A DNA stretch of 60,000 bases, taken from the NCBI RefSeq assembly GCF_026151205.1, contig NC_087082.1, positions 10,550,901 to 10,610,900 of the forward strand. The letters run 5' to 3'. Of the stretch, positions 7,077 to 54,347 are shown piece after piece (within the stretch, counting starts at the first letter, position 1; every line of letters begins with the position of its first letter). Source of the DNA: Bolinopsis microptera. Its lineage: Eukaryota; Ctenophora; Tentaculata; Lobata; Bolinopsidae. The notes below the pieces were generated by a model. It was not told where the DNA came from and ran no database searches. It saw only the letters and a list, made by a program, of their open reading frames with translations. Made by a program: the position numbers and the translations under genes.

Positions 7077-8688
7077 CAGTGTAGTTACCATAGTAACAGT
7101 GTAGTTACCATAGTAACAGTGTAGTTACCATAGTAACAGTGTAGTTACCATAGTAACAGTGTAGTTACCATAGTAACAGTGTAGTTACCATAGTAACAGT
7201 GTAGTTACCATAGTAACAGTGTAGTTACCATAGTAACAGTGTAGTTACCATAGTAACAGTGTAGTTACCATAGTAACAGTGTAGTTACCATAGTAACAGT
7301 GTAGTTACCATAGTAACAGTGTAGTTACCATAGTAACAGTGTAGTTACCATAGTAACAGTGTAGTTACCATAGTAACAGTGTAGTTACCATAGTAACAGT
7401 GTAGTTACCATAGCAACAGTGTAGTTACCATAGTAACAGTGTAGTTACCATAGTAACAGTGTAGTTACCATAGTAACAGTGTAGTTTATAGTTACCATAG
7501 TAACAGTGTAGTTACCATAGTAACAGTGTAGTTTATAGTTACCATAGCAACAGTGTAGTTACCATAGTAACAGTGTAGTTTATAGTTACCATAGTAACAG
7601 TGTAGTTACCATAGTAACAGTGTAGTTACCATAGTAACAGTGTAGTTACCATAGTAACAGTGTAGTTACCATAGTAACAGTGTAGTTACCATAGTAACAG
7701 TGTAGTTACCATAGTAACAGTGTAGTTACCATAGTAACAGTGTAGTTTATAGTTACCATAGCAACAGTGTAGTTACCATAGTAACAGTGTAGTTTATAGT
7801 TACCATAGTAACAGTGTAGTTACCATAGTAACAGTGTAGTTTATAGTTACCATAGTAACAGTGTAGTTACCATAGTAACAGTGTAGTTACCATAGTAACA
7901 GTGTAGTTACCATAGTAACAGTGTAGTTACCATAGTAACAGTGTAGTTACCATAGTAACAGTGTAGTTACCATAGTAACAGTGTAGTTACCATAGCAACA
8001 GTGTAGTTACCATAGTAACAGTGTAGTTACCATAGTAACAGTGTAGTTACCATAGTAACAGTGTAGTTACCATAGTAACAGTGTAGTTTATAGTTACCAT
8101 AGCAACAGTGTAGTTACCATAGTAACAGTGTAGTTACCATAGTAACAGTGTAGTTACCATAGTAACAGTGTAGTTACCATAGTAACAGTGTAGTTACCAT
8201 AGTAACAGTGTAGTTACCATAGTAAGTGTAGTTACCATAGTAACAGTGTAGTTACCATAGTAACAGTGTAGTTACCATAGTAACAGTGTAGTTACCATAG
8301 TAACAGTGTAGTTACCATAGTAACAGTGTAGTTACCATAGTAACAGTGTAGTTACCATAGTAACAGTGTAGTTACCATAGCAACAGTGTAGTTACCATAG
8401 CAACAGTGTAGTTACCATAGCAACAGTGTAGTTACCATAGTAACAGTGTAGTTACCATAGTAACAGTGTAGTTACCATAGTAACAGTGTAGTTACCATAG
8501 TAACAGTGTAGTTACCATAGCAACAGTGTAGTTACCATAGCAACAGTGTAGTTACCATAGCAACAGTGTAGTTACCATAGTAACAGTGTAGTTACCATAG
8601 TAACAGTGTAGTTACCATAGTAACAGTGTAGTTACCATAGTAACAGTGTAGTTTATAGTTACCATAGCAACAGTGTAGTTACCATAGT
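7077..8688. repeat. Minisatellite of ~80 units, each a match to the RFX/X-box site
   Basis: The unit is gtagttaccatagtaacagt (20 bp), repeated about 80 times with very few changes. Each unit holds GTTACCATAGTAAC, an imperfect palindrome. It fits the RFX-family X-box consensus GTNRCC-N(0-3)-RGYAAC: GTTACC, AT, AGTAAC. The commonest variant, AGCAAC, keeps the Y position legal. Eight units are 28 bp long, with an extra TTTATAGT (near 7482, 7530, 7577, 7742, 7789, 7836, 8083 and 8648). Two blocks with the same long/short order (from about 7530 and 7742) point to unequal crossing-over. One unit near 8223 has lost four bases. No gene was seen within 2 kb. Confidence 0.95.
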
Positions 8689-8690
8689 AG

Positions 8691-11600: not shown

Positions 11601-12462
11601 TGCTAGTAAACCTACTATAGTCTGTGGTAAGCAGATTAGTAATATTACAAGGTGGTTTTATGTCGGAACCAGTTAACCTTTATTAAGAGTTACTTTATAT
11701 CTCATTCACCAGATGAATTATAGTTCAAGTTGCAACCTTGGAGTCCTTGGACCTGGATTCTTCGGCTACTGAAACATGGCATGAAATACGGCTGTGGCTA
11801 GAATCCCACCCCCATAAATTTACTTCATATATCAGTACAACATGGCCTGTATGAATTGTAGATGATGTGACCAGCAATGAGGATATAAGCAGGTGAACTA
11901 GCACTGTTACCATGGTAACTACACTGTTACTATGGTAACTAGCACTGTTCAGCCAAGTCGCCCAACCATACGATACTGCAGGACCAATGACTCAATAGCC
12001 ATGCAATTGCAAAGAACGCTTTGTAACCGTTAAACACAAGCATTATGGACAAACCCTGTCTCACTCAGCACCGTTTTCCCTATTCTAGATTCGCAAAGTC
12101 TGGCTGACTGAGGGTACGTCACGTGATAACACTTAGAAACGTTATGTGAGTGGGAGTTATCAGCCACGTGCTTAATGAGCCGGGTCCCAGGCTGAATTTA
12201 TCCATTTAAACAAAACTTGTACACAACACTGCAAAGCAACGACACATTTGCTTGATTTGTGATTGGTAGATTTTGGTTTTATAATTTGAGTCAAAATTTA
12301 AAAATTGCCACACTGGTTATACGTGTATGCGCGGAGATAAAACCGATTAATACACGAAAGCATTTATATGGATTAAATTTGTTTAATTTCCTTTGTAATA
12401 CAGAAATTTGCTAAAAATAGAGCCAGATATTTTCCTCACATCTGAACTGGAAGTAGAGAAAG
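8691..12462. other. Intergenic stretch with small repeats
   Basis: No coding motif was recognised. A two-copy tandem repeat of about 35 bp (GGGCACATATCACACATGG...) lies at 9298-9368. A hairpin-like pair of CACGTG motifs lies at 12120-12170. The ORFs 9980-10201 and 11725-11913 (minus) and 10710-10898 (plus) show no domain. Confidence 0.5.
11901..11950. promoter_or_regulatory. Pair of X-box-like palindromes, outlying copies of the 7-8.7 kb unit
   Basis: GTTACCATGGTAAC (a perfect palindrome) and GTTACTATGGTAAC sit 20 bp apart, joined by TACACT, and read as the reverse complement of the minisatellite unit. Both fit the RFX consensus on one strand or the other. Whether they act is unknown. Confidence 0.5.
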
Positions 12463-18318: not shown

Positions 18319-21300
18319 GTAAGATATACCTTAAATATCATATTACTCACAGAATGTTTAGCTTATACGGAGGATACTATTTGAGATCTTAGGACAATGG
18401 TTCTATGATGAAGATGCAAGTAAAAGCTTGTGGTCAAAATGTTCTTGTGGCTGTCGAAAAAGAGAGAGAGAGATCATTGTTCTCCCGTGTATTTATGGAG
18501 GAGACTGATCGCTACACAGGTGTCTAACAACACTCCAACAAGTTTAGCTGGTCATGACCCCACTCACCACACGCGTCAATGGAAATGGTTGAGTCGAGCG
18601 GGGGGTGAGGAATCTATATTAGCTCTAAATATACTAATATATGAATGTCTTGAGAGTTGCATTTGAGGCAATTTACCCAGAAATAAATCTCCTTTCTAGT
18701 TTTACAGCACACCATAACTATAGAGTAACAAGTCTGTAATAATCGGTTTCTAAGAACTATTGAAAAAAACGATTATTACTCGGTACAATGACGGTTGGAA
18801 TAATGATTGTAAATTTCTCGATAATGTAAATATATAAGGACTATGTCTCAGAGATGAATGACGATCTAATGCTAATGGTTGATAAAATTCGCAACTACAA
18901 AAGTGACTGAAACATTGATCACAGTTGGCGAGGGAGGAGCCATACACCACGGCAGAACTAACACTATTTATAACATGTCTAATAGCCTCCCCGAATTGAG
19001 TGTGATGGATTATGGGGCTGTAGTAATATGGGTGGGTGGAAAACATTCCGGGGGCTTCATCCGGGGAGACCTTGCAATGTGGAGCATCAATTGGACGATG
19101 TGGTCATGCAGGTAAAACATGAGGTAATTTGTCTTACAGAGGCTCCTGACTCATCCTCGTTATATTGAGTTATTGGAACATTCACGACAAATATTGAAAT
19201 AAATAATATGATCAATGATACGAGCCCCAGCACCGGCTGTAAAGGTAATCCCTAGAATCCTAAAATACGATCAAGTTCCGTATACTGATATTCGGGAGGA
19301 GGCCCTGTCAATTTGTAGATCCTGCCAACTTATGGGATCGAGATGAAATAGGGAATCAGGTGAAAATTAAAATCAGGTACAGGAGTTACGGGAGAGGATC
19401 TGAAAGTCTCAGGGTCGCCCAATCACATACGATTTGTTAAATTATACTCTACCTCGGATTAACCTAAGACGGTAGATAAGAAATCGGTCCGTGCTGTTTT
19501 GTCCCGGATTTAGACTCATCCTGTAATCACTGTCTAGCCAAAACGTCCTCACTTATACCGAGAGTGTCAAATAGCCACAAAAATGATTAATACTAATATA
19601 AACCAACGGAAATGATCGCCCTTCAAACCAAAAGCCACTGCCAAAATACCGCTTATATTCGCTATAACATTAAGTTTAACACAAGTTCCTCTCGCCAGGG
19701 CACTAAATTAGAGAAACGTGGAAGCCCGCGTGCTGTCCCAGCATCTTTTGAGAAGTGTTAATAGGATGGAATTAGGCACCTTTAGCACCAGCTAAAGGTT
19801 CGACCGACAGGTTCAGGGTAAAGGCTCTGTTGCAGACCGGTCAACTTCAGTGCACTCCTCCTGTCTCAGCGCTTCGCGTGTTCAGACCTTTTGGAGCTTC
19901 CCAAGTTGTTGCAGAGTTGAGTTTTTGAAAGGAACTTCTGAAGACAATTACGGAAATATGTTTGCATTACTGTATTCATACGAGGGTTAGCGCTGGCAAA
20001 TTGAGGGTTACAAATCTGTTGCAAGGTGTGCGATCAGCGCAAGGTGTTCTGGATAGCACGATCTTAACGCGGGAACCTTTGGAAGGTTGGAATATTCTTT
20101 ACCACCACCTTGGTTCTGGAATTATCCTTGCAAGGCTGCAGAATTTCTTTTGTGACTCATTATAAGTCACGGCTCCAATATTACTCGTAAAGCAAGTTAT
20201 ACGTAGAGTCAATATTCATTATTCGTGCTGTTTTATTACAATAAATCTATGCCATATTTTCTAATAATCATGTCGTAGAACCGCAGAGAAAAGTAAAATG
20301 TTGTAAATTTGTCGAAAATCAATCAAAGAATTAGATATCCATGATGATAAACGTGCAAATCTAAATTGTAATCTATAAATTCATTAGAATATGTTCGGAC
20401 CATGCTTACGGATCGAACGGATGAACTGTTTCGGCTCATGTTTAGGCATATCATAAAGTCTAGGATATCGGCACAGTGCAGACGCCACACAATTATGGGT
20501 GATGAATGATCATGACAGTGACAGATACAGCAATAATTAATTAGACTTGGAAGAGCTGATAATTTCTCAAGTGCGAATATAAAGAGGAATCTGCCGCGAA
20601 TTTTCTGAGACAATGCCAACTCAACTCTGTCCTCGAACTCAAAGATAATATTTAAACATGCATGATCTTTGAAATGTTTGAAATGTTTGAATCAACAATA
20701 TCTTTGTTAACAAATACATTATAACCCTTGTCGTTATCTACCATGGCATCAATTACCGCTAAATTAAGCCCAAACATTTGGAGTCATATCACTCCCGATC
20801 CTGCTGCTAATCTCAATCTGTTGCTATAGCAACTATACTTTTGGCTCATGTTTATTTCATTCGGTTCCACAAACTCATCCTTATTCATGTAACACAGCTA
20901 TTTCCTTCGATCCTAACCCTCTCCATTTGGTATTTTCAATATTATTAGGGCACTTAATTCTCATGTGCTTAATTGAATGCCAGGCAAAGCACCCTGCCTA
21001 CCTGCCTAGGTCGATCCAAAAGAAAAGCACCAGACCAATATAATATTCTCTTGTGGGCCTCGCTTTAAAAAAAGGGAAAGTTACAATTCAAAGGTGAGGT
21101 GATTCTAATTTCTAGTGGTTATATTGACACAGTTGTTAACTGTTGGTAACTCATTGTTCCGATTACACTGCTTCAAAACAAGGAAAAAAGATAAGACGGT
21201 TAAAAAACTACGAAAGATAAAATTACTATCATTAAGCCGATCAAACCTGGGCGTAAGGTCATATCAATAATCAAAAACTGAAACTCATCTCCGAGCTTCG

Positions 21301-26372: not shown

Positions 26373-27245
26373 GGCTACCATACAAAATATAAACATTGCT
26401 GACCTTGTCCTTCCAATGGAACTATTGTGGACCGTCATAATTGTAAAAGAATAAATTTCTGAAAACATTCATCTTTGTTTGAAGTCAGGGCCAGGGTTAG
26501 CCTTAAATCTTAATTCTGACTAATTCGCGAGGTTCTCACCAAATTGAGAGTAAAATTGTTTGAGTTTCGTGCATTTGAATTACGTTGACGCATATCTTCG
26601 GTGAAGCTATTTCGTTCTTCGGAGCAGCGAAGGAAATAAGTGCACACACAATTGACAGCATAGGAGCGCCTTTCTTGAAATTGAATAAACCATGTTTAGT
26701 GTTTGGTTAAATATTAAGTGAGCTGCGGTGGCAGTGAATATTGAGGCTCTGGTGATTTTGAGGAATTCCAGTTGAGTAAGGAAACAAAATTTCCACGTGT
26801 ACCACGTGGAGTTTACAGTTCTTGCTTGACAGAAAGAATCGGATCGTGTGCCTAGACCCTATTTACAGATGATGGACCCATTCCATTATATATAGGTCAG
26901 ATTATCGAGCTTGAACACTCTTCTCAATTGTTTAGATTTACGTTATGTGACCTTGTCTAAACATCAGCCGTTCTGCTTTCTTCTGATATGTTAGTCCTTG
27001 CTTCATTTTCTAAGCGTGCATGAAGATTAAGATGGTCAGGTTGGTGCATAGAGGTAACATTCTAACCGTTGGCCAGCACGATTCACTTCAATTCATATCA
27101 TGCACTTCGCAGCAAGCCCATTATACTATTAAACTATTATAGACCCATGTGTCCAAATCACACTATTTAACCGTTGACGATTTCGCGACTATTTCGCGAT
27201 TCAGTAGTGTCGCAACAATACGGGAGCCCACATGAGTGTCAAGCG

Positions 27246-28372
27246 GAAAAAAATTTTAAAAATTTTAAACCCTTTTTTTTTTCCCTTTTTTTTTTTTTAA
27301 ATTTTTTTTTTAAAAATTTTTTCCCCCCCCAAAAAAACCCCCCCCCCCAAAAAGGGGCCCCCAAAAAAAAAACCCTTTTTTTTTTTTTAAACCATAAAAA
27401 CAAAACCCCCCCAAAAAAAAGGGGGCCCTTTTTTTTTAAAAAAAAAAATTTTTTTTTAAAAAGGGGGGGGGGGGGGAAAAAAAAAAAAAAAATTTTTAAA
27501 AAAATTTTTTTTTTAAAAAGGGGGAACCCCCCTTTTTTTTAAAAATTTCCCCAAAATTGGGTTTTTTTTTTTAAAAAAAAAATTTTTTTTTTTTTTTTCC
27601 CCCCCAATTTTTTTGGGGGAAATTTTTTTTTTTTCCCAAAAAAAAAAAAAATTTTCCCCAACGGGGGTTTTTTTTTTTTTTAAAAATTTTAAAAAAAAAT
27701 TTTAAAAAATTTTTTTTTTTTTAAAAAAAAAAAAAAATTTTTTTTAAAAAATTTTAAAAAAAAAAAATTTTTGGGGGGAAATTTTTTATTTTTTAAAAAA
27801 ATTTTTTTAAAAAGGGGGGGGGGGGAAAATTTTTTTTTTTTTTTAAAATTTTTTAAAAAAAAAAATTTTTTCCCGGGGGGGGTTTTAAAATTTTTGGGGG
27901 GTTTAAAAAAAACCCCCCGGGGGGGGGAAAAAAAAAAAAAAAATTTTTTTTTTTTTTGGGGTTTTTGGGGGGGGTTTTTTTTTTTAAAAAAATTTTTTTT
28001 TAAAAAAACCCCTTTCCCCCAAAAAAAATTTTTTTTTTTCCCCTTTTTTTAAAAGGTTTTTTTCCCCCCCCCCTTTTTTTTGGGGTTTTTTTTTTTTTTT
28101 TTTCCCCGGGGGGTTTTAAATTTTTTTTTTTCCCCCCAAAAAAAAAAATTTTTTTTTAAATTTTTTTTTTTAAAAAATTTGGTTTTTTTTTTTTTTTGGG
28201 GGGGAAAAAACCCCCCCCCGGGCCCAAAAAAAAAAAAAAAAAATTGGGTTTTTTTTTTTTGGGGGGGTTTTTGGGGAAAAAAAAAGGGGGAAAAGGGGGG
28301 GGTTTTAAAAAATTTTTAAAAATTTAAAAAGGGTTTTTTTTTTAAAAAAAATTTTTTTTTTGGGTTAAAAAA

Positions 28373-28407
<35 letters not shown>

Positions 28408-29144
28408 TTTTTTTTAAAAAATTTTTAAAAAATTTTTTTTTAAAAAAAAAAAATTTTTTGGGGGGGGGGGGGTTTTTTTGGAAGGGTTTTTCCCCTTTTT
28501 TTTAAAATTTTTAAAATTTTTAAAAAATTTTTTTTAAAAATTTTAAAAAAAAAAAAATTTTTTTCCGGGTTTTTTTAAAAAAAATTTTTTAAAAAAAGGG
28601 GAAAAAAAAAAAACCCCCCGGGAAATTTTTTTTTAAAAACCTTTTTTTTTGGGGTTTTTAACCATTTTTTTTTTTTTTTGGGGTTTAAATTTAAAAAAAA
28701 AAAAAAAAAAAAATTTTTTTTTCCCCGGGGGGGGGTTTTTTTTTTTTTAAGGGGGGTTTTTCCCCCCTTTTTTTTTTTTTTTTAAAAAAAAATTTTTTTA
28801 AATTTTCCCAAAAAAGGGGGGCCCGGGGGAATTATTTTTTTTTTTTAAAAAAAAAATTTTTTTTTTTTTTTTCCCCCCCCTTTTTTGGGTTTTTGGGGGA
28901 AATTTTAAAAAATTTAAAAAAATTTTTTTTTTTTAAAAATTTTTTCGGGTTTTTAAAAAAAAAGGGGGGAATTTTAAAAAAAATTTTTTTTAAAAAACCC
29001 CCCCAAAAGGGGAAAAGGGGGTTTTTTTAAAAAAAAAGGGGGTTTTTTAACCTTTTTAAACCCCCTTTTTTTTAAAAATTTTTCCAAAAGGGCTTTAAAA
29101 TTAATTAAAAAAAAAAAAAATTAAAAATTTTAAAAAAAAACCCC

Positions 29145-29176
<32 letters not shown>

Positions 29177-30256
29177 GGAAAAAAAAAAAATTTTTTTCCC
29201 AAAAAGGGGAAAAACCCCCGGGGGGGGGGGGGTTTTAATTAAAAAAGGGGGGGAAAATTTTTAAAAACCCCCCGTTTTTTTTTTTAAAAAAAAAATTTTT
29301 TGGGGGGGCCCAAAAGGGAATTTTTTTAAAAATTTTTTTTAAAAAAAAAAGGGGGGTTTTTTTCCCCCGGGATTTTAAAAGGGGGAAAAAATTTTAAAAA
29401 AAAAAATTTTAAAAAAATTTTTTTTTTTCCCAAAAAATTTTTTTTTTTTTTCCCCCCAAATTTTTTTAAAAAAATTTTTTTTTTTTTAAATTTTTAAAAA
29501 TTTTTTTTTTTTTTTTAAATTTTTTTAAAAAAAAAAAAAAAGGGGGGGGTTTTAAAAAGGGGAAAAATTTTTTTTTTGGGGGGGGAAAAAAAGGGGGGGG
29601 AAAAAAAAGGGGTTTGGGGGGGTTTTTTAAAAAAAGGGGGAAACCCTTAAAAAAAAAAAAATTTTTTTGGGAAACCCCCTTTTTGGGATGGGTTTAAGGG
29701 GTTTTAAAAAATTTAAATTTTTTAAAAGAAAAAATTTTTTTTTTAAAAAAAAAAAAAAATTTTTTTTTTTTTTTAAAAAAATTTTTGGGGGGGGTTTTTT
29801 TTTCTTTTTTAATTTTTGGGAAAAAAATTAAATTTTTTTTTTTTTTTAATTTTTTTTTTTTAAAAATTTTTTTTTTTTTTTTTAAAAAAAAAAAGGGGGG
29901 AAAAAAAAAAAAGGGGTTTTTTTTTTTTTTTTTTTTTCCCCCCTTTTTTTGGGGAAAAAAAAATTTTTGGGGAAAAAAGGGGGTTTAAAAAAAAAAAAAA
30001 AAAAAAAAATTTTTTTGGGGACCCCTTTAAAAAACCTTTTTTTTAAAAATTTTAAAAAAAAAAAAAAAAAAATTTTTTTTAAAAAAATTTTTTTCCTTTT
30101 AAAAAAATTTTTTTGGGTTTTTTTTTTTTAAAAGGGGGGAAAAAAAAACCCCCCTTTTTTTTTAAAAAGGGGGGGGGCCCCAAAATTTTAAAAAAAAAAA
30201 TTTTTTTTTTAAAAAAAATTTCCAAAAAAAAAAAAAAAAAAAAAAAAAAACCCCCC

Positions 30257-30295
<39 letters not shown>

Positions 30296-31134
30296 TTTTT
30301 AATTTTTTTAATATTTTTTTTCCCTTTTTTTTTTTTTTGGGGTTTTTGGGGGGGGGAAAAAAAAAAAAAGGGGGTTTTTTTTTTTTAAAAATTTTTCAAA
30401 AAAAAAAATTTTAAAAAAAAGGTTTTTTTGGGGAAAAAAAAAAAAAAGGCCCAAAAAAAATTTTTTTTTTTTTTTTTCCCCCCAAAAAAAAGGGGGGGTT
30501 TTTTAAAATTTTTTTAAAACCCTTTTCCCTTTTTTTTTAAAAAAAAATTTTTGGGGGGGTTTTTTTTTTCCCCCCAAAAAAAAAGGGGGGTTTTTCCCTT
30601 TTTTGGGGGGGGTTTTTTTTTTTTTTTTTTGGGGTTTTTTTTTTTTTTTTTTTCCCCCCCCCCCCCTTTTTTTTTTTTAAAAAATTTTTTTAAAATTTTT
30701 TTTTTTTTTTTTTTTTTAAAATTTTTTTTTTAAAAGGGTTTTTTTTAAAAATTTTTTCCCCCCTTTTTTTTTAAAAATTTTTTAATTTTTTTTTCCCCTT
30801 TTTTTTTTCCCCTATTTTTTTTCCCCCCTTTTTTTTTAAAAATTTTTTTTTTTTCCCCCCCCCTTTTTTTTTTAAAAACCCCTTTTTTAATCCCCCAAAA
30901 AAACCCCCCCTTTTTACTTTTTTTTTCCCCCTTTTTTATTTTTTTTTATACCCCCAAAAAAAAAAATTTTTTTTTTTTTTTTTTTTTAAAATTTAAAAAA
31001 TTTTAAATTTTTTTTGGGAAAAAATTAAAAAAATTTTAAAAAAATTTTTTTTGGGGGGGTTTTTTTTTTTGGTTTTTAAATTTAAAAAATTTTTTAAAAA
31101 ATTTTAAAAAAAAACCCCCCCCTTTTTTTTTGGG

Positions 31135-31166
<32 letters not shown>

Positions 31167-34100
31167 CGCCCAATTTTTCAGGTCCCTTAAAAAAAAACCA
31201 TTTTTTAAAAAAATTGGGGATTTTTTAGTGTGAAATTTTTTTCAGGGGTGGGGGGGGGACGTTGCCCAAATCGCTGCAAAAAAAAAATTTTTTCAGGTTT
31301 CGGGGGAGCATGGGGGGAAAATGGGTTTTTTCTAAAAAAAACCCCCTTTTTTTTTAGGGGCAGTTGTGGGGGGGGGGGACATATACCATACAGACCACGG
31401 GGGGCAAGCAGGGGGACCTTTTCATTTATTTGGGTTATATTTTATTTTTTCCCCTTTTTTACTAAAAAAGGGCATAATTAAAAAAACTTTATTTTTTAAC
31501 CCCCCTTTATTTAATTTTTTTTAAACCCCCTTAAAACAAAATTTTTCCCCCCTTTTTTGGGTGTTTTTTTTAGTTCAAAAAACATTTTTAAATTTGATGT
31601 CGGGGGGTTGGGGACGGGAAAAAAAAAAATGTTATGTTGAGTTTTTTTTAAGAAAAATTTTAAAAAAAAAGCCCGCCGGGGCCCCGTTTTACGGAAATTG
31701 GGTTTTAAAAAAAAAAACCCAAAAAAATTTCCCCCAAAATTTCAGGTGCCTTTAAAAAAACCCCATTTTTTTAAAATTGATTTTTAGAGATGTAAAAATT
31801 TTTTTCAGGGGCTTAAAGGGGGGTTGGGGGGTTTCCCCAAATGGGGGCTCCCAAAAAAAAATTTTTCAGGTTTTTGGGGGAGCATGGGGGGAAAAAAGGG
31901 GGTTTTTTTCTGGGGAAACCCCCTGTTTTTTACCACGATTGTTGGGGGGAAAATTTTTTACAGAAGATTAAATAATAATTTCGGGGGAAGGGGGGCCCCT
32001 TTTTCCCAGTCAATTGTGCTGAAATTTAAGTGTCCATAAATTTCAAAAGTTAAAAAGTTTTTACACCCATTTCCGCAACACAGGTCTTCCCAAAAAAAAA
32101 TTTTTTTTACACTTTTTTTTTCAATGAAATTAAAAAAAAAAATTTTAAAAAAAAAATTTTTTTTTAAAACACCCCTTGGGGGACGTAAATTCATTTTTTT
32201 TAAAAAAAAAAACCTTTTTAAAAAAAATTTGTTTTTGGGGGAAAAAAAGGGTTGAAAAATAAATTTTTTTAAAATTTAAAATTTTTTTAAAAACCCTTTA
32301 AAAGGGAGAAATTTTTAATTCAAAAATCTGGGGAAAAATTTTTTAAACCTTTGGGTTTTAATTTTTCCCAAGGGGCATTCTAAAAATCTACCGGAATTTT
32401 TTTTTTTCTACCCTTTGGGCTTTTTTTTCATAAAGTTTTTTCGCCCTTTTGATTTTGGTTTTTTTTTTAAAAAAAATTTTTTTTAAAAAAAAAAAGGGTT
32501 AAAATTTTTGCGTTTTTATTTTTTTCCTGGGGTTGGGCCCTCCCTTTGGGGTTTTTTTGGGGGGAGCCCATTTTTCTGTTTTTTCCTATAGGAAAAAAAA
32601 ATTGGGGCTTTTAGGCTATTTTTTTTTAAAGTTAAAAATTTTCAAAAAAAATTTTTGGCCCCAACTTTTGGGGGACAGGAAAAAAATTTTTGGGAAAAAA
32701 TTTTGTTTTTAAATTTTTCTTTTTTTTTTTAAAAAAATTTGGGGCTGGTTTCCCCTTTTTTTTCTTTTAAATTTTAAAGATTTTTTGGCCGGGTTGGGGT
32801 TTTCCAGTTTTTTCTTAAAAAATTTTTTTGGGGGGGAAACCCTTTTGGGAAAGGGTTTTTAATTTTAAAGGGTTTATAAAAAAAAAAAAAATTTACATGA
32901 AAAAAAAATTTTTCGGCGAAAAAAATTAATTAGAGGGGCGCCCCCCCGAAAAGGGTTCCCCCCTCAAATTTTTTTTGCACTTTGGGCGAAAGGTGGAAAT
33001 TTTTTGGGGTTTTCCCTTTTCGGGGATTTCCAAAAAAATTTTTGGGTTTTTCCCCCGGGACAGTTTTATGTCTTTATTTAGGGGAATTTTAAATTTTGGC
33101 CCAACTTGGAAGGGGAGAAATTTAATTTGGGTATTCGGGTTCATTTTGATGGCCCGTTTAATTGTTTTCCCTAAACTTTAAGGGAAAATGTTTTTTTTTT
33201 TAAAAAGGGGAAAATTTTTTGGGAAATCGTTTTTGGAAATTTTCCCCCCTTTTTTTAATTTTGGAAGTACAGTTTTTTTATTTGGATTTTAAAATTAAAA
33301 ATTTTACCCTTTTAAACCCTTTTTATAATCAAAAAAGAAAAGGGATTAATTTTTCCAAAAAACCCCAAAAACCCATGGGAAAGAGGGGGGAACCGGGGCT
33401 CCCCATTTTGGGTTTCTTTTTTCCCAAAAAACCAAAAAGGGAAATGATTTTTTTTTGGATTTGGGGAACCCGTTTCTAAAATTTTGGAAAAATTTTTACC
33501 GGAAAGGGAAATGGGGGTTTGGGCTCGTTTTTTCCCCCTTTCTTTTTTTTCCCAAATTGAAAATAAAAAAAATTGTGATTAAAAAAAAAAGAATTTACCC
33601 AAGGGAAAGGCCGGGAAATTTCGGCTTTTGAAGTTTTTCTTTTTTTAAAACTTCGGGTTTTGTTCAAAAAGGTAAAAAAATTTACCCCCCTTTGGGGTTC
33701 CCTTCCCCAAAAATTACTAGGTATCCCCCCCCCAAAAAACGAAAAACCCCAAAAAGAAAATTTTTTTTAAACGAAATTGATTGATGAAAATCAATCAAAA
33801 AACTTTTATAAATTTTAACCAAATTTTGGGGGGAAAAGGCCGTAAAAAAATTAAAAAAAAAAAAAAAAAATTGGGAAAAAAAAAGGGCGAAAGGGGGGGA
33901 CCGGAATTTTAATTTTTTGGGGTATTCTTTTTTTTGCTTTTTAAAAAAAAGGTTTCAATAAAATTTTAAATTTATCTTTTCCCTTTTTTTGTTTGGGGAA
34001 AAGAGAGGACACGGCCCAGGGGGGTCCCACCCTTTTTATTGGGGGGTTTTTTTTTTTAAATTTTTAAAAAAATTTTAACCGGGAATTTTAACATTTATTT

Positions 34101-37100
34101 AAAGGGGAAAAAGGGGGGGGGGAGGGGTTTGGGTGCCGGGGTAAATTTGAAAGGCCTGTTTTTAAAAGGGGCCCTAAAATTAAAAAAGTTAAAAAAGTTA
34201 ACAGCCATTTGGGGCCCCCCAGGACTTGAAATTTTTTTTAAGGGGGGTTTTTTTAAAATTTTTTTTAAAATTTTTAAAAAATTTTTAAAAAATTTTTTTG
34301 GGGCCCGTAAAAAAACCCCCCCCTTGGGGGGGGGAGGGTTTAAATTCGGGGGGTTTAAAAAAAACCGGGTTTTTTTAAAAAAAATTTTTGGTTTTTTTTG
34401 CCCAAAAAAGGGTTTTTAAAAAATTAAACTTTTAAAAAAAATTTTTTTTTTAAAAAACCATTGGGAGTAATTTTTTTTAAAAAAATTTTGGGGAGGGGGG
34501 AAATTTTCCCCCTTTAAAGAAAAATTTGGTTTTAAAAGAAATTTTTTAAAAAAATTTCCCCCCCAAAAAAAAATTTTTTTTTCAAAGTTTTGGCTCCTTC
34601 ATAAAAATGGGTTTCTTTCCATTGAAGTTTGTTTTTTTTTTTTTTAAAGGGAATTTTTAATTTTAAAAAAAAAAACCTTTCAATTTTTGCGATTTATTTA
34701 ATTTTTTCTGGTTTTGGGGGGCCCAATTTTGTCCTTGGGTTGGGGGGGGAAGCCCCCAGTTTTCTGCTTTCCATGGGGGTTAAAAAAAAAATTTTTGGGG
34801 GGCATTTAAAACTATTTTTTTTAAATTTTAAAAAAACCGAAAAATTTTTGCCCCAAGGGGTTGGGGGGGGCCCCCCCCCCCCAAAAATTGGGGAAAAAAT
34901 TGGAAATAAAAATTTTTTTTAAAAATCACGGGGAAAATTGGGGGTTTTCGTAAATTTTTTTTTTGGTTAAAAACTTTAGGGGGGTTGCCGTTGGGGGAAT
35001 TAATTTCCTTTTTTTAAAAAATATTTTGGGAAAATTTTGGGTTTTGGCTTTTTAAAATTTAAATTTATAAAAACCCCCAAAATTACTTGAAAAAAAAATT
35101 TTTACGGGGGGGATTCAAATGGTTTTAAGGCCCCCCGAAAAAAACCGGGGCCCCCGCTAAAGGGGGTTTTGCCGTGCGAAAAAGGGGTGGTTTTGGGGGG
35201 AATTTTTTTTTGTTCATTTGTTGTTTTTCCAAAAACCCAATTTTTTCTGTTTTTCCCAAAGGGAAAAATTTTTTTTTTTAAGGGGGGAAACCCAATTTTT
35301 TTTTGGAATTTTTTTAACCCAAAAACTTGAAAATAAAGTTTTTTTAAAAGTGGTTTTTCAGTCAGGGGGATGGGGAACCGGGAAAAGGGTTTCCCTTTTA
35401 ACAAAAGGGGGGGAAAAATTTTTTTTAAAAGGGAAAAAAAATTTTAAAAAAACCCGTTAAAATTTTTTCCCTTCCTTTTTTAAATTAAATTTAAAGAAGT
35501 TTTAACCCCATTTTTTATTTTTTCGACTTTTTAAAAAAAGGTTCCCTTTGGACTTTTAAAAAACCCAAAAAAAAAAGTTTGATTTTTTCCCAAAAAAACC
35601 CCAAAATTTCAGGGGTAGAGGGGGGACCGTTTGGGCCAGGGGTCTCTTTTTTCCCAAAAAAAAGGGAAAATTTTAAATTTTAAATTTTGGGAGGGGGGGG
35701 ACCTTTTCCTAAAATGAAAAATTTTGAAAAACCGGGGGAATTTAAAATGGGTTTCGCCCGCTTTTCATTCTTTTTAAAAAATTTTTTTTTTTTTTGATTA
35801 AAAAGGGAACTCCCCAAAAGGCCAAAAGGGACTCGGGGAAATTTGGAAGTTTCCCAAATTTAAAAAAAACTTCCCAGCTTGTTCAAAAAAGTTTTTAAAT
35901 ACCCCCCCTTCCCCCTTTTCCCCCCAAAAATTTACTGGGTTTATTTTCCCCAAAACGCAAAAAAAAGATTTTTTTTACGGCTTTCGGGATTTGATTTTAA
36001 TTTAAAAAAGGGAAACTTTTTTTTTAAAAATTTTTGGGTTTTGGGGGGCCGTAAATTTGGAAGGGGAAAAAAAGCGGGGGGGGGGGGAGGGATTTTTCTT
36101 TTTCCCCGGTTATCTTTTTTTTGGCTTTTTGAAAAAAGGGGTAAATTTAAAAATTTTTAAAATCATTTCCTTTTTTTTTGGGGAAAAAAAAGGGGGGGGA
36201 AACTGGGCCATCCCGGGCCCATTTTTTCCCCCCGGGGTTATGGGTTTTTTGGGTTTTTAAAAAAAAATTTTTTTTAAAATTTTTTTTTTTCTTAAATACA
36301 AAAACATTTTTGGGGTTTCGCGGGAAAAAAAAAAAAAGTTTTTGCAAAAAAAAATAAAGTTTTTTCCCCAATAATTACTTTTTTTTTTTTTTTTATTGTT
36401 TTCTTTTTTTTTTTTTAAAAATTTTGCTTTTTAAAAAAATTTGTTTTTTTTTTTAAAGGGGGCCATTTTAAAAAGGTCTTTTTTTTTTTTCCCCCCGGGG
36501 GGGGCCTTTCCATCGATAAAAAATTTTTTATTTTAATGGGAAATTTTTTATTTTTTTTAAGGTCACGGGGGTTTTTTTTTGCATTTTTTTTTAAATTTTC
36601 CCCTTTGGGATTGGCAAAAAAAAAAAAAAAAAAAAATTTTTGGGCATTTAATTTTTCGATTTTAAAAATTGGGGAAAAAAACCTCAAAAGAAAAAAAAAA
36701 TTTCGTCCCCAAAAAAATTTTTTTTTTGTTTTCGGATTTAAAAGGGGAAAAAAATATTCCCCCGCTTTAACCCAGTTTAAGAAAATTATATGCTTTTTTA
36801 CAAACCCTTTTGCAAAATACTTTTTAAAAAATCCTTTTTTCCGGGTTGAAATTGGCAAAAATGGGCCAAGGTTTTGAAAAAAAAAAGATAGGGAAAGGAC
36901 CCGGGGGGTTTGGGTTCTTTTTTTACAATTACTTTTAAAAAAAAAAAAAAAATTTTTCCCGAAAAAAAAAAAAAAAGTGAGCTTTAAAAAGTCAAAGGGA
37001 AAAAGGGGCCATCCCGGTTTTCCCGGGAATCTTTAAAAAACATTTTTTTTTTAAAAAAATTTTTCCGACATCCCCCTATTTTCGCCAGGGTTGGGTGGGT

Positions 37101-39367
37101 TTTTATTTACGGAAAGGAAACCGGGTTTAAAAGGAAAAACGGGCACAAGTTTAAAAAAAGCCCGCATTTTTTTAAAATGGGGGTGAAAAAACAAGGGGGC
37201 CGGACCCTTTTTAAAGGGCCTCCTTTTTCTTTGCTTTTTTAAATTTTTTTTATTTTTTTTAACCGGGGTTTGGGGGTTTTTTGGGTTTTTATTAAAAAAA
37301 AAGTGGGTTTTAAAATTTTCCCGGGGCCAAACTAGAAAAAAATGAAAAAAAAAATTTAAAAGGGGGTTTTTGAAAATTTTAAAAAGGGAGGGGGTGGACA
37401 TTTTTTCCCCCAAAAATACTTTTTTTTTTTCTAAGGGGCCCCTCGGGCAAAAACGGAATTTATTAAAAAAAAAAACTGATGGAAAAAAAAATTTTACACT
37501 TTAAAAATCTGTCTTTTAAATTTCCCCAACCAAAAATTCCATTAGGGGGGTTTTTTTTAAGTTTTTGGGGGGTTTTACCTTTAAAGGGGGGGTTGTCTGG
37601 TTAAACCAAAAAACCCCCAAAAACCGGAAAAAAAACCAATTTTTGCGGTTGGTTTTTTAAAAAACTTAAAAAACCCATAGTCATTGGGGGGGAAAAAACA
37701 AAAGGCCTAAGGGGGGACGGGGAAAACTTTCCCCATATATTTAAAATTTTCCCCGGGGGAAATTTTTCTCGCCTTTTTCAAATTTAAAAAAGTGATAAAA
37801 AAAAAAAAAATTTTCGGGGCAAAGGGAAAAACTTTAAAAAACCCCAAAAAATTTATTCACCAAACCGTATTGTTCCAGGAAAAAAAAACCACTTTGGGAC
37901 GATCCGCCACCCCAATGGTCCCCGTGCCCCCTTTTTAAAGGGAAAAGGGTCGGGTTTAATTTCACGTTCTCCCGTTTTAAAAATTTTAAAAATCGTGGGG
38001 GTTTTTGTTTGTGGTTTACTAGGGGGTTTTTTTTTGGGTTTTTTTAAAACTACGTGAAATAAAAAAATTTTTTTTCCTTTTTGGTAGAGGGGCAAAAAAA
38101 AAAACATTGATAAAGGGGCACATTTTCCATATGAATTTTTTTTCCCACAAGGTTTTTTCTGGGCTCTACGTCAACAATCATCAAGAGGGGACGGGGTTTT
38201 GGGGTATTTGGGAAAAAAAATTTAATAAGGGGAATTTTTCTTTTCTCCGGGGAATTGGGGGGAGTTACATAGGGGGTTAGCTAGGAAAAAAACCATTTTA
38301 CAAATTTCAATAAATCGCGAATTCATTTAATTTTAATTTCAATACCGGGGGTTTAGAAAAACCTTTTGACCTTTTAAGGTGTTTCTTAGGGGTCAAGGGT
38401 TCCCCGTGACCTTATTTTTTAAATTTTTAAAACTCGACGTTACTGCGTAAAAATTTTGGGAATTAAAAAAATGGTTTTTTTTAACCATTTTTATTTATTT
38501 ATTTTTTTGCCAATTTTTTTTTTTACTGTTTGATGAAAAAAATTTTTTAGGGAAAATTTTTACATGTGATAACAAAAATTTAAATTTCCTGTTTTAAAAA
38601 ATTAAACCAAAAAGGGGAAGAAAATCTTTTTTTTCCCCCGGGACAATTACATTCTTGATGGTCCCCCTGGGGGTTTGAAAAGGGGGAGGGGGAAAAAGGA
38701 ATTTTTAAAATCCCCCCCTTCCCACTGGGGGGGACAATCAGGGTGGAAATTATTTCGTCGTTTAAAAAATTACCGTACTTTTTTTGGGGGTTTTAGTCCG
38801 TGTTTTTCCCCCGGGGTTGGAAATTAGTAGGTTTAATCAGTATAACTTTTAAAAAAATTGCAAGGGAATGGGATAAGGGGCTAAATTTTAAATTTACAAA
38901 AAAAAAATTCAAAATTTTCAACACCGAATTTTTAAACCTACGTTTTTAAAAACCAGGGGACATTAAATGAAAAATTTTAGGGAAAAAAAAATTAAAAAAC
39001 CAGTAACTTGTTACTTGACACTATTTTTTTGTTTTTTGGGGGTTTCGCGGGGGAATAGCAGTTTAAATTTTAATGATTTTTTTTTTTACTTTTTTCGCAA
39101 AGGGGGGGGCGTTAAAAAAATTTTTTTTTTTTTTTTTTTGTTTTACTTTTTTTTCATTAAATCCCTTTGAAGGAAAAAGAAATGGGAAAAGTTTTTTTTT
39201 AAAAAATTTTGGGGGGGAAAGTTAAATAAAAAACGCTCCTCTTTTGAGGGGGTAAAGAAAAAAAAAAAAAAGGGGGAGGGGGGAATTTTAAAAAAAAAAA
39301 AGGGGGAAAAATAAAAAAAAAAGGGGGAAAAAAAAAAAAATTTAAAAAAAAAAATAAAAAAAAAAAA

Positions 39368-39402
<35 letters not shown>

Positions 39403-41729
39403 CAGCCCCCCAAAAAAAGGGGGGGGGGGAGGGGGGGGGGGGGGGGGGGGGGAAAAAAGGGGGAAGGGAAAAAAAAGAGGGGGAAGCAAAAAAAAGGGGA
39501 GGGGGGGAAAAAAGGGGGGTTTTTTTAACTTAAAAAAAAACAAAAAATGAAAAGGGGGAAAAAGGAAAAAGAAAAAATTAAAGGGGTTTTCCCCTTTGGG
39601 AATAAGGGAAAAAGGGAAAAGGGGGAAAAAAATTTTTGAAAAGGGGGAAAGGAAGTAAAATGGGAAAAAAAAAAAAGGGAAGGGAAAAGGGGGGGTAAAA
39701 AAAAAAAAGGTGTTGGGGGGAAAAAGAAGAAGGGGGTCCCCCGGGATGGAAAAAAAGGGGAAAGGGGTAAAAGTAAAAGGTTTCAAATTTTAGGAAAAAA
39801 AGGGGGGGGTAAAGGGGAAAGAAAGGGCCCACGTTTTGGGAAGAATAGAAGTGACCCCCGGGGAAAAATTTTTCCCCCCTGTTTTTTTTAAACTATTTTT
39901 TTTTCCCCTGGCAATTTTTAACTTTCAACTAAAAAACCATTTTAAAATTACTTTTCAAACAAAAACTTTATTTAAAAAAACAAATTTTTTTATAAACTTT
40001 AAAAACCCCCCTTTTTGGGCCCTTTTTTTAAAAAATTTTTTTTTTAAAAAAACCCTGCCTAGTTCGGGGTTGGGGAAAGGTTTTTGGGATAGATATGTTT
40101 GGGTTTTTGATTTGCCCCAAATAATCCCTTTCATTGCTTTTTTTTTTAAGCTTTAAAAAGCATTGGGGGCAGGGGTTTTTTTTTAGCGCGTTTGGGGCAT
40201 TTTTACGGGGGGTTTTTCGGGCCGCGGGCATCCAAAAGGGGTTTCCGCTTGGTTTTTAAGATCGGGGGGGAGATGCACCCTTTTCCCCCTTCCCCCGGCT
40301 GCAAAGGGGGATTAAAAAAATTAAATTAAAGGGGGGACGGGGGTTTTTTGAAATTTAATGATTTTGATTCCCGTTATCGGGGAAACGCGCCCAAGGTTTT
40401 TTGGGGCCCCCAAAACTGGGGGGGGAACCAAAATTTTAAGGGGTTTTTAAAATGTTTTTTAACCGTTGTGGGGGATTTTTACAAAATATGATTTTTTACG
40501 GGGGCAAATTTTTGTTGGTCAGGGGGGGGAAACAGGGGGAAAAAAAAATTTTAAAACCATTTTTCCCCCAACTTTTTTTTTACCCCAAACCCCCGGTTTA
40601 AGGGGGGGGGTTTTATTTTTAGTTTTTTTTTTTTTTTTAAAACGGGCCCCACGTTTTTTTTTAATTTTATTTTTTTTTAAAAAGGGTTTTTGCAAAAAAT
40701 GGTTGCCCCGGGGAAACAAAATTTGGAATTACCTTTAAATTTTTCACCCCAAAAAAGGGTTTTTTTTTTAAGAAAAATTTTTTTATAAAAAAAAAGGGAT
40801 TTTTTTTTAAAATTTTTGGGTATAAAAAATTTTTATTAAAAAATTTTAATAAGGGGGGCCCTACACTTTTTTCCCGCCCTAACTTTTAAAATTTCCCCCA
40901 AATTACCTTTTTTTTCCCTTTTTTTTGGGGGGATATTTTTTTTAATTTGGGTTTAAAATACTTTTTCCCAATTTTTTTTATTTCTAATTAAAAAATTTTT
41001 TTTTGAAAAGTTTTTAAACTTTTAATTAACACTTTAATTTATTTTTAAAATTTTAAAAAAAGTGTTTTTTAGTTTTCCCCACTAAAAAAAAATTTTTTTT
41101 GAAAAAAAAAAATTCTAATTTCCCTTTTCCCCCCCCCAAAAAAAAGGGGGGATTTTTTGGGTTAAATTTGGGGAAAATTTATTTTGGGGGAAAATTTCCT
41201 GCCCTGGGAAAAAATTTTTATTTTTTCGAGCAAAAAAATTTTTTTTTTTAATTTTTGGGGGGAATTTTTAAAAAAAAATTTTTTTTTTTTCCAAAATTAA
41301 TTCGGAAACTTTTTTCTTTTTTTTTAAAAAAAATTGAAAAAAGGGAAAAAAAGGGGAAAACAAAAAAATTTGGGTTTTTTTTTTCTTTTTGGGTTTAGGA
41401 AAAAAGGAAAAGAAAAAAAATGGGTAGTTTTTTGGGGTAAAAAAACCATTTTGTAAAATTTCGGAGTTTTAAACCTATTGGGGTCTAATTTTCAAAGGTT
41501 TTTTATTAAAAAATTTTTTATTTTTCCATTTAAAAAAAAATTTTACGTTGGAAAAAAAAATTTAAAAAATTTTTTAAACCGGGGAAAAATTTTTAAAAAT
41601 TTTTAAACCGGGGGGGGGAACCCCTTTTTACCAAATTAAATTAAAATAAAACAGAAAATTTGGTAAAACCAAAAAATTGCCCAAAAATAAAAATTAATTT
41701 TTTTCCGGGTTTTTCCCCGATAAAAAAAA
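27246..41729. other. Homopolymer-collapsed region, probable base-calling/consensus artefact
   Basis: From 27246 nearly every base sits in a run of three or more identical bases, with all four bases represented. The effect is strongest at 27.25-31.16 kb and eases rightward, where scraps of ordinary sequence show through. Normal composition returns abruptly at about 41730. No known biological repeat has this texture. Every open frame in it encodes mainly Phe, Lys, Gly, Pro and Asn (TTT, AAA, GGG, CCC, AAT/AAC) and is not a gene. The true sequence and even the true length here should be treated as unknown. Confidence 0.85.
31225..31960 (+). repeat. Two blurred copies of one repeat inside the homopolymer region
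   Basis: 31225-31400 and 31795-31960 share, in order, TTTTTTTCAGGGG, a CCCAAAT block, TTTTTTCAGGTTT, GGGGGAGCATGGGGGGAAAA and a CCCCCT...TTTTT block. They are about 570 bp apart. The pair shows that real repeated DNA underlies the corrupted calls. Confidence 0.55.
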
Positions 41730-44138
41730 TGCCTCAATTAGATACCACTATATAAAAGCGGTAGTGAAGCAGAAACCTCTGAAGTTCTGGCTCCTGCCTG
41801 GCCCCACTAAATGGTGCATCCCTTTTCGAGTCAAATAAAATGTGTGCATAGTTATGGGAATCCTGATCGTGAGGAAAACTTAGCATTAACGAGCAAACTG
41901 TTCTTTGTAATATTAGAATATCACGATTATATATTCGATATTATATACTCATTGAAGTTCAGAACTTTGTCTCTTCCCTCTAAACTGCTGAAAGAAGATT
42001 AGGGAGTGTAACAAATACCATTGTTAATCATGCTGATGCTCTCATGGCCAATGCGAAAGTAAATCTAATGTCACGTTCTCACGTGCATAAAAGCATATAC
42101 TGTAAAATCTCAGCAGCTACATACCTGCTGCTCTCAATCAAGAGGTTGTCAGGGTACATTCTCTATATCCGACGCTGGAACGAGAATAATGTAACAGTAC
42201 ACGAGAATAATGTAACAGTACACGAGAATAATGTAACAGTACACGAGAATAATGTAACAGTACACGAGAATAATGTAACAGTACACGAGAATAATGTAAC
42301 AGTACACATGGTCCCAACTGAACTACTGGTTTCAGTCAGGACCATGTGACACCGAGGGAGTGTTATAGATGTTTAGTTGGGGTACTCGAGAACAGAAGCT
42401 GTGAGCGGAATTAAGTTGCGTTAAACAGTATGCACTAAACTGGTGAAGCACTTAGATTAAGTTGTGTAAAACTGGGCTTATCCGAAGAAATCGGAGAGCT
42501 GGACTGAAAACCCTGGAATCAATAGATATATCACAAACTGAAACGGTAATTCATTTAATCCTGTTTCGAAAGCATTCTTAGTAAATAATTTCAGATATAT
42601 AACAGCCCTCTTTACATGGCTTCGGAATGGCCCCAACGTTCGAGTTTTTCAGTGAAACTTTTAACAGCAAATCAGGGAAGTGTTAAAAATATTCGGCTGT
42701 CCACGATCATGCTATTCAGTGATCGATTAGTAAAGCATGCGAAACTCATCTCATTCTGCGGAGAGTCTATTTACTTGTGAAGACTGAAGATCGAAAATTT
42801 CGTGGAAATAACCAAGTATTCTCTTTTTTGTTTACTGAAACCTACAGGAAATTAAGATGAGCAAAGCGCTGCTTGTATCAGACATTACTTTTGAAATTCT
42901 GAAGAAATGATCGCGGTTATTGTCAATGCAGACCTAGTTGCTTAATCGTATCTTAAATTTTCCTTAACCTTAACATGAACCATGATTAACAAAACCTACA
43001 AAATTTGAGGAAGGGAACAAAGTCGTATAGTAAAACGACCTTAACATCTTGCAATTGTTTACAAATATTTGATGTAGTTTAAGCTGCAGAATCAAAATGC
43101 TTTTCATCATATTTCTTTGCAAGCAGAAATTAGTTGCAGGGGAATAATTTTACTGTTAGGGTCTAGTTAAGTGCTGATGCAAAGTCAGAAATGCTAGTCA
43201 ATTATATCTCTAATTTAGGATCTGTTCAAGTTTTGATCGCTAGGAATGTATATATGCTAAATTATTTTATAATGCTCACGGATGTACAGGAAATTTCAGA
43301 TGTGAAGACTTTAATCCACACGATCCTGTACATATACGTGTCCCGTTGAGAGGCCATGTGGTTCAGATTGCGCGCGCACTTTGTGCGTACCATCTATTAT
43401 AAAATTTACAGTCGCGTTTTCCAAAGTATAGCAAAAGAAGACCGTTTTGATGAAATTTGTCATTCTAAACATGTGTACATCACTTCATGCGGCTCATTTA
43501 TCGAACCGTGGAGAACAAATTCTAGAGATTTAGCTAGTTTGTAAATGTGCTTAATTCCAGAAACAATGGTTGCCATACATTTTAATTTTAGGCTTCAAAT
43601 TTGAGTCAGAATCTTGAAAATGGTTTCAATAAATAATCAGTTACTACAAGAATTTTCATAATCTCCCATTCTTAATTTAGAAACACAAAAGGGATAAAAT
43701 TAAAATTATCGAAGCTTCAAATAAGATTGAGTAAGAACGAAATTTAAAAACTGGTATGCCAGTTTACTTCTACAATCCATGTTATTCCACACATTTCTCT
43801 ATGTAGCAGATGCTATGTACAGCTGGATCTAAAGATTTACGCTTAACAATTATTAGTTTTCTTCTGTAACCAAGTTTGAAATCTTATGGGACGGCTCTCA
43901 AGCCCAGTATCATACGTGTCCCAATTAAACTAACGATCGTGGCATTGTGTAGTCAGTGGTGTAAAACTTAGCACAGTGAACATTCATCAGTTAAAAAATG
44001 TCAATTCTTATCAAATATTTAACATATTATCTTATTAACCATAATGATTTCATTAGCATTATAAAAAATTCAAATAGTCTAAAAACACCGTCGACTGTTC
44101 CGGTCTACAAAATACATTGGCCTAAAAGTACTAGTTAT
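41730..44138. other. Intergenic stretch 3' of the DnaJ gene
   Basis: Normal-complexity AT-rich sequence. Apart from the 21-bp array at 42181-42306 I see no feature. The ORF at 43356-43544 has no family motif. A clear AATAAA for the DnaJ gene on the minus strand was not found close to its stop. Confidence 0.5.
42181..42306. repeat. 21-bp tandem repeat, six exact copies
   Basis: The unit starts CGAGAATAATGTAACAG. Because 21 is a multiple of three, it gives a repetitive ORF (NNVTVHE six times on the plus strand, 42044-42349) that I take as incidental. Confidence 0.95.
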
Positions 44139-48994: not shown

Positions 48995-49943
48995 GGGGGG
49001 GGGGGGGGGGGGGCAATGGGTATTTTTTTGTGAAACTTGATTTCGAGATAGCAGTTGACCAACAAACTAGGACCAGTGACCGAACTTTTGAGGGGGTCCT
49101 GGACCCCAACCACCAAACGGTAGCCACGCCCATATTTGGTCCAAATTAGGCCCAATTTAGCCAAATACCCTGACCCTGAACATGCCCAAAACCCATATTT
49201 TATGTGTCAATTTAGGCCTCCAAAAAAATTTGGCGGCCAAATTCTGAATTTTGCAGTGCAAATTTTGGAATTTGTCCGCCAAATTTTTTTGGAGGCCTAA
49301 ATCAAAATTCGGCTTCCCACAATAAGGTCGAAATGCGATTTAGAGTCGATTTCGAAAATTTCATGCAAAAATTTTGAAAACTTATTAAGTTATTTCCAAA
49401 TTAATGAAATCAATTCCGCGAATATCACGGGCAATTTTATAGGGTGTTCATTTTTTGGGGTATTTTCGCCTTAGTATCCATATTTAAACAGATATAACGC
49501 TATAACTTACAGAGAATATGTAGTTTAGGCTTACCTTTCATATAAAGCTAGTCTCATCCAAAATATTGATATTTGACCAATTTATGGGACGAAATCTATT
49601 AAATTTGGTACATATGCCAAAATATGGGCATATGGTTTTTGGCTCATAACTCAGTCATTTTTTGTCCAATCTTGATGAAATTTCACATACGAGTTCAGGA
49701 GACCACTAGCTACAAGAAGAGTGCATAAAATATGGGTTTTGGGCATGTTCAGGGTATTTGGATAAATTTGGCCTAATTTGGACCAAATATGGGCGTGGCT
49801 ACCATGCGGGTACCGTTTGGCGGTTGGGGTCCGGCACCCCCTCAAAAGTTCGGTCACTGGTCCTTATCTCGAAATAAAGTTTCACAAAAAAATACCCATT
49901 CCCCCCCCCCCCCCCCCCCCCCCGCCCCCCCCCCCCCCCCCCC
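48995..49943. mobile_element. Long-TIR non-autonomous element with poly-G/poly-C ends
   Basis: A run of 19 G opens the left arm, and long C runs (49901-49944, broken by one G) close the right arm. The arms themselves (49014-49205 and about 49725-49900) are inverted repeats of nearly 200 bp with small indels. They share ATGGGTATTTTTTTGTGAAA, CCAGTGACCGAACTTTTGAG and TTTGGTCCAAATTAGGCC. No target duplication is obvious and no ORF is credible. Confidence 0.75.
49211..49302. repeat. Central hairpin of the long-TIR element
   Basis: TTTAGGCCTCCAAAAAAATT, then TGGCGG, pairs with CCGCCAAATTTTTTTGGAGG and CCTAAA. The arms are about 33 bp around a loop of about 25 bp, so the element has an inverted repeat nested inside its outer inverted repeats. 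Confidence 0.8.
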
Positions 49944-50200
49944 CTCATAACTCAGTCATTTTTTGTCCAATCTTGATGAAATTTCACATACGAGTTCAGG
50001 AGACCACTAGCTACAAGAAGAGTACATAAAATATGGGTTTTGGGCATGTTCAGGGTATTTGGATAAATTTGGCCTAATTTGGACCAAATATGTGCGTGGC
50101 TACCATGCGGGTACCGTTTGGCGGTTGGGGTCCGGCACCCCCTCAAAAGTTCGGTCACTGGTCCTTATCTCGAAATAAAGTTTCACAAGAAAATACCGAG
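49643..50200. repeat. Tandem duplication of the right arm of the long-TIR element (period 301 bp)
   Basis: 49643-49899 and 49944-50200 are almost identical, both running from CTCATAACTCAGTCATTTTT to GTTTCACAA.AAAATACC. Only the first copy keeps the C run after it. The same 68-aa ORF appears in both copies and is not a gene. Confidence 0.9.
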
Positions 50201-51891: not shown

Positions 51892-52259
51892 CCAAGATAG
51901 GCATTCTCTGAATACCTGTCTCAACAAATTTTTTGCCCTGAATTTATTTATTTTTACTCTGAAAATTCTGCTCAAACAATTTTACCTACACACTTAACAA
52001 TTTCAAACCAAATCACCCCATCCAAACCCAGTTTGTCCTGTTGTTGTTAGTGTGTCTGACCTTTGAATGATTTACATATTTTTGAATACTTCAATCACTC
52101 TTTTGAAAGTTCTTGAAAAAATTCTATTGAATCATATTCCCACTTAACCCACCTCATATCACTCACAATGAACTGGCTGATGCTCTTCTCCTTTCAGGTG
52201 CAGGGGTCTGTCCAAGCTGGCCCCCTGGACTCCGGACATATCTCTGATATCATATCATC

Positions 52260-54341: not shown

Positions 54342-54347
54342 TTTATC

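Follow-up and report, generated by a model that had tools for sequence, protein, structure and literature searches.

The locus raises the question of whether a tandem array whose units match the X-box, the consensus of RFX/DAF-19 transcription factors, is kept for that match, or whether the match is a by-product of how the repeat grew and spread. The window, the 60,000-nt stretch of Bolinopsis microptera DNA analysed here, is C11:10550901-10610900 of a genome of 264.65 Mb in 232 contigs.

Make-up of the array and its X-box match

TRF, run on the whole window, detected a tandem array at 7077-8689 (period 20, 77.9 copies, 92% matches), a minisatellite in the sense of head-to-tail units of about 10-100 bp. 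Splitting its forward strand at each GTGTAGT yielded 78 units, with the first core at 7084-7097 and the last intact core at 8658-8671. The commonest unit, GTGTAGTTACCATAGTAACA, accounted for 60 of the 78 in identical form; a further eight carried AGCAAC, eight were lengthened to 27 bp by a TATAGTT insert (four with T and four with C), and the remaining two were one unit of 18 bp and one broken at the terminus. Three of the 27-bp units (7479-7599, forward strand; cores 7491, 7538 and 7585) alternated with 20-bp units, and a like alternation was observed again at cores 7752, 7799 and 7846. Two runs of three AGCAAC units (cores 8371/8391/8411 and 8511/8531/8551) occupied 8371-8564 on the same strand. 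The longest repeated block of the unit-type map included both of these runs, and its length was reached in 26 of 2000 shuffles; the repeated block suggests block duplication within the array. The sole 18-bp unit contained a degraded core, GTTACCATAGTAAG (8213-8226, forward strand). A second mini-array of the same family was found in the opposite orientation at 11896-11949 (GTTACCATGGTAAC, a TACACT spacer and GTTACTATGGTAAC; reverse strand), and an isolated near match, GTTGCTATAGCAAC, with one mismatch to GTTRCCATRGYAAC per strand, at 20820-20833.

The X-box is worded in the available text of one source as GTNRCC-N(0-3)-RGYAAC (PMC10530576). Strict matches to this wording numbered 76 in the 78 units, and GTTRCCATRGYAAC with at most one mismatch gave 159 strand matches in the window, compared to a mean of 0.12 in 100 shuffles. 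The array is a true and striking match to the X-box consensus. A preliminary description had proposed about 80 tandem X-box sites, with a T-to-C variant (AGCAAC) that stays within the consensus; both points were borne out, the variant being present in 12 of the 78 units. The exact 20-bp pitch of that description did not hold, as nine of the 78 units, the terminal one apart, were of another length. RFX dimers on one face of the DNA are likewise not what the array would offer, because a 20-bp step makes 1.9 turns at 10.5 bp per turn and so rotates each site by about 34 degrees relative to the one before. In this array alone, the only substitution was T to C (12 copies), by which the motif is kept, and the motif was lost in two units by deletion or end decay; these events are too few to decide.

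Several other features were observed in the window. Among 10 reading frames scanned against Pfam, the match nearest the array was 7tm_1 at 411-665, below the curated cut-off. The stretch 27270-41613 contained long homopolymer runs (A/T, some G/C), had a GC content as low as 22% and dozens of rows in the TRF output, and looks like homopolymer-inflated, poorly corrected assembly sequence. At 46474-47748, a single open frame spans the gene of a phosphagen (guanidino) kinase (Pfam 2.4e-68); the kinase's anthozoan-like match is not diagnostic, since the best-scoring structure consisted of two matched stretches and the score was apparently their sum. A 301-bp unit was repeated 1.8 times at 49643-50197 (98% matches, TRF). 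Two adjacent long reading frames were located at 52248-57743, the first with a 2OG-Fe(II) oxygenase (AlkB-like) domain (1e-18) and the second reading like an endonuclease-reverse transcriptase; together they are likely a non-LTR retrotransposon with an AlkB-like domain.

One core with many spacers

Genome-wide, the GTTRCCATRGYAAC class gave 2643+2405 strand matches, compared to 11+12 for the reversed control; members whose centre is ATGG are counted once per strand, so the number of sites lies between 2524 and 5048. The X-box core GTTACCATAGTAAC was matched 1378 times (761 forward and 617 reverse; reversed control, 0 + 2), whereas its sister core GTTACCATAGTTAC was nearly three times as common, with 3774 matches (1735+2039; reversed control, 0 + 4). 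On contig C1, 84 of the 86 places with GTTACCATAGTAAC lay within the first 2.64 Mb of 26.2 Mb, toward one contig end. The core was absent from eight random 4-kb stretches (one with 2796 N), a sample too small for density.

Twenty stretches were read for other arrays, most of them in the first 2.7 Mb of C1; because most were chosen for GTTACCATAGTAAC or GTTRCCATRGYAAC, their proportions do not estimate those of the whole genome. TRF identified 191 non-redundant arrays in 217 kb, and minisatellites of many kinds are therefore abundant in the stretches read. Removal of two loci overlapping the window left 186 arrays, and window positions 27000-42000 were left out of the counts. An exact search match was lacking in 166 of the 186, with ATGGTAAC as the top shared 8-mer in 21 (0.4 expected from shuffles); a core-like stretch was present in 24 of the 166, and 14 of these had period 21. 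Among the 21-bp arrays read, the commonest exact unit was ACTACTAGTTACCATAGTTAC, which was found in some rotation or strand in eight of 13 period-21 arrays checked.

The periods of core-bearing arrays ranged from 20 to 91, and one core was joined to many spacers: TGTATTA, TGCAGCAG, TGGGGCT, TGGACGTGCT, TAGTAGT, TAGTAGCTAC, spacers of 25 nt and 77 nt, and others. Some form a graded series, from TAGTAGT through TAGCAGT and TAGCACT to TACACT, which we read as probable descent. Other core arrays had spacers seemingly unrelated to ACTACTA (TGGGGCT, TGGACGTGCT, ATGCTCTATCTCG, 25 nt and 77 nt), and these are poorly explained by common descent alone. Part of the spacer diversity is ascertainment, since the loci were picked by the core.

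The window array is probably one branch of a genome-wide minisatellite superfamily, pieces of which settle at new loci and expand locally. The superfamily would consist of units mostly 20-27 bp long, some longer, with a shared core of about 14 bp, GTWACYATRGTWAC. One unit or a few at a time would become established at new, unrelated loci, perhaps as short pieces inserted at staggered breaks where the target is duplicated, and would then grow by slippage or unequal exchange. In the window's branch, we infer, the second core half may have changed from GTTAC to GTAAC, which would give a palindromic core with the X-box match as a by-product.

Alternatively, the core itself might drive the birth of arrays, core-bearing sites being liable to break and to duplicate in tandem through a bound protein or a hairpin; human minisatellites with their shared core are a proposed parallel. 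Such an origin would agree with the joining of one core to several seemingly unrelated spacers at periods of 20 to 91 bp and with the clustering of GTTACCATAGTAAC at one end of C1, and the TGCAGCAG unit folds at -6.1 kcal/mol, with 15 of 200 shuffles as good. The window unit, however, folds at only -2.8 kcal/mol (24 of 200 shuffles as good) and the unit of the commoner core at -0.5 kcal/mol (145 of 200), and unrelated minisatellites are abundant in the same neighbourhood. A palindrome or hairpin was rejected as the driver, as the commoner core is not palindromic. We consider core-driven birth unlikely.

Possible RFX binding and the test of motif retention

The units might instead be kept as X-boxes, the array serving as an enhancer, a boundary or a sink for RFX protein. 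An RFX-type DNA-binding domain was matched at two places in the genome: C9:5271499-5271684 (68% identity, query residues 2-63, E 2.1e-24), which holds one TAA, possibly an exon end, and C4:11987230-11987382 (47% identity, query residues 5-55, E 2.9e-9). Because the consensus match is exact and these two places match an RFX-type domain, binding of RFX to the window array is plausible. The 76 strict matches in the array and the abundance of the GTTRCCATRGYAAC class over its reversed control also speak for a functional array. So does the spacing of half-sites: an X-box with a gap of 0-3 was present in 33 of the 186 array consensus units and in none of the reversed control, although at loci chosen by motif. 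Inverted half-sites at gaps 0, 1, 2 and 3 were found in 1, 6, 24 and 2 arrays, at gaps 4 to 7 in 0, 0, 1 and 1, and at gaps 8-15 together in 18; the excess at gaps 0-3 over gaps 4-7 looks RFX-like, yet the numbers rise again at gaps 8-15. A CCTAG centre is common to five of the six gap-1 cases, and these five may therefore be one related group.

Retention of the motif lends no support to such a function. In the commoner sister core the second half-site is lost; the ACTACTAGTTACCATAGTTAC unit has AGTTAC there, outside RGYAAC. Core changes were counted in the seven of 12 aligned arrays with an X-box consensus, the other five being left out: the X-box was kept by 10 of 35 distinct core substitutions and broken by 25, compared to a random expectation of 12 in 42 possible single changes. 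No preferential keeping of the X-box was seen in these seven arrays, where a weak effect is possible with 35 changes. Mean substitution types per site were alike in core (about 0.39) and spacer (about 0.42), as averages over the 12 aligned arrays. Furthermore, GTTGCCATGGCAAC, which we take to be a strong X-box, was not among the 33 arrays with gaps of 0-3 and had 123 sites genome-wide. Selection for RFX sites is unsupported by the genome core counts and the within-array changes, and a functional RFX/DAF-19 array is, in our judgement, quite improbable.

Variants that break the motif as often as they keep it had been set beforehand as the sign that would speak against an RFX array, and this pattern is present at the family level (3774 broken compared to 1378, and 10 of 35 changes kept). 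From the RFX reading of the preliminary description, the exact consensus and the possibility of binding stand, and retention of the motif across the family fails. Its other suggestion, a neutral repeat with a palindrome that happens to match the motif, fits the data better.

The sites of GTTGCCATGGCAAC showed an arrangement of their own. Among the first 100 strand matches listed, many lay 1236-1283 bp apart, in pairs or a triple, on several contigs. At L047:1-3301 (C1:14850300-14853600), the copies were carried in identical repeats spaced 1243 bp, which read as an LTR-like or tandem element with an X-box consensus.

Dispersal, flanking duplications and known systems

A genome search for the window's own unit, suggested earlier, yielded 100 matches to the 20-bp unit with the TACACT spacer: 57 on C11, including one in the second mini-array, and 43 on six other contigs (C2, C3, C4, C7, C10 and C13). 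Nine stretches with this unit contained arrays of a single to few copies, 11 cores on C2 and 38 on C13. After masking of repeat words, blast detected no similarity among the flanks of the nine stretches or between them and the flanks of either window array, and the left flank of the window array was single copy in a genome-wide search.

Direct duplications were sought around core clusters as a word of at least 9 bp shared by left and right flanks, with shuffled partners as the control; clusters near locus ends (116 to 114) and loci overlapping the window were dropped. A shared word was found at 52 of 114 clusters, compared to 4 to 9 in eight shuffles, many of them within longer tandem repeats. 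When the word had to lie within 12 bp of both ends, 18 of 114 remained (200 shuffles: mean 0.65, maximum 4). Another, looser test gave 22 of 114 (shuffled mean 1.3), and one on TRF boundaries, with the same 9-bp minimum, found shared words at 11 of 40 core arrays and 25 of 191 others (shuffled means 0.7 and 2.0); many of the looser-test cases were within longer tandem repeats. In the strictest test, the word was also limited to two nearby occurrences, and duplications flanked nine of 114 core clusters, seven of 177 core-free arrays (GTAAC relatives in two cases) and 14 of 5000 random intervals. Core clusters strongly exceeded random intervals (Fisher p 6e-10) and did not differ significantly from other arrays (Fisher p 0.19), so flanking duplications accompany arrays in general and specificity for the core is unsupported. 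No direct duplication was detected around the window array.

Three cases were clean: a 13-bp word around a 14-bp core alone (L009:6445-6458), a 13-bp word around 35 bp of repeat (L010:4021-4055) and 42 bp on both sides of seven cores (L018:5921-6060). The L018 case is the clearest of the three. Its 42-bp duplicate consists of an exon start and what looks like the splice acceptor before it; the exon reads LMLEFCALGAMDTILKELDRGLDEEAIKIVTKQTLE and resembles STK10 and SLK kinases (best E 1.7e-6). Because this is a conserved exon of the host, the duplication would be later than the gene. The L018 case fits repeat insertion at a staggered break; local duplication, with the repeat growing later at the junction, is a possible alternative. 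Within L018:5771-6103, which takes in this duplication, a one-unit copy bounded by ATGTACTG was observed on the exon's other side. Several of the inserts between direct duplications were 14-35 bp long and nearly all repeat. The duplications may point to staggered breaks into which short pieces were inserted before they expanded. Empty sites were sought with joined flanks: those of L042 matched only L042 itself in the genome search, and in the fetched DNA the junction-spanning blast matches listed were self matches and one between two repeated copies at L020, which is not an empty site.

It is doubtful that bare monomers of about 14-35 bp move by themselves without a transposon shell, duplicating about 7-42 bp of target, seeding arrays and scattering thousands of RFX-type half-sites and full X-boxes, at least once into a splice junction, with RFX perhaps titrated or recruited. 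Carriage by a DNA transposon (Helitron/Helentron or MITE), with the arrays as its internal or terminal repeats, would fit the dispersal to unrelated loci and has an oyster Helentron precedent in the available text of PMC7492417, but it is very unlikely, as the left flank of the window array has no second copy in the genome, the masked flanks of the window and the nine same-unit stretches share no common module, and several duplicated-flank inserts hold little besides repeat.

The superfamily reading, with settling of pieces followed by local growth, bears on the open question of how minisatellites are born and arrive at new places, for which this genome offers thousands of matches to one core in many contexts. 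Because some inserts of one or two cores are apparently caught between duplicated host sequence, a founding event could be read by comparing individuals, and the route by which the family founds arrays is the part worth following. The array is also a warning that an exact, repeated transcription-factor consensus can be a by-product of repeat spread. Literature searches found no paper joining minisatellite, X-box and RFX, subscription papers being mostly outside their scope; the full 14-mer core was not among the matches listed for motif letters, and among the matches listed for such repeats none was recognised as the window repeat.

As with the Jeffreys core of human minisatellites, many arrays here share one short core in differing surroundings. 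The human core is GC-rich, whereas the core here is GTTACYATRGTWAC-like.

Compared to the RFX/DAF-19 X-box, the half-sites, their orientation and their spacing are exact in 76 of the 78 window-array units. Animal RFX motifs are described as enriched near transcription starts in the available text of PMC10530576; here they are tandem minisatellite units whose relatives freely lose the second half-site. In Trichoplax, the ACAGT microsatellite is over-abundant and a proposed binding site (PMC2871265, in part). There, as in the present family, a single motif stands out by its abundance among the tandem repeats of an animal, but motif and unit length differ. Satellite-like repeats of Crassostrea gigas are spread by Helentrons according to the same oyster text (PMC7492417), and like them the present repeats form short tandem arrays dispersed over the genome; unlike them, as far as that text describes them, no shared transposon module was found at the window array or the nine same-unit stretches. 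For molluscs, independent shuffling of satellite monomers has been proposed (PMC5139131, in the part available), with one satellite having junctions within a palindrome. Like the satellites described there, the present repeats occur in anonymous sequence as single monomers or short arrays with abrupt junctions; here, however, the unit measures about 20 bp, and host sequence is directly duplicated on both sides of some pieces.
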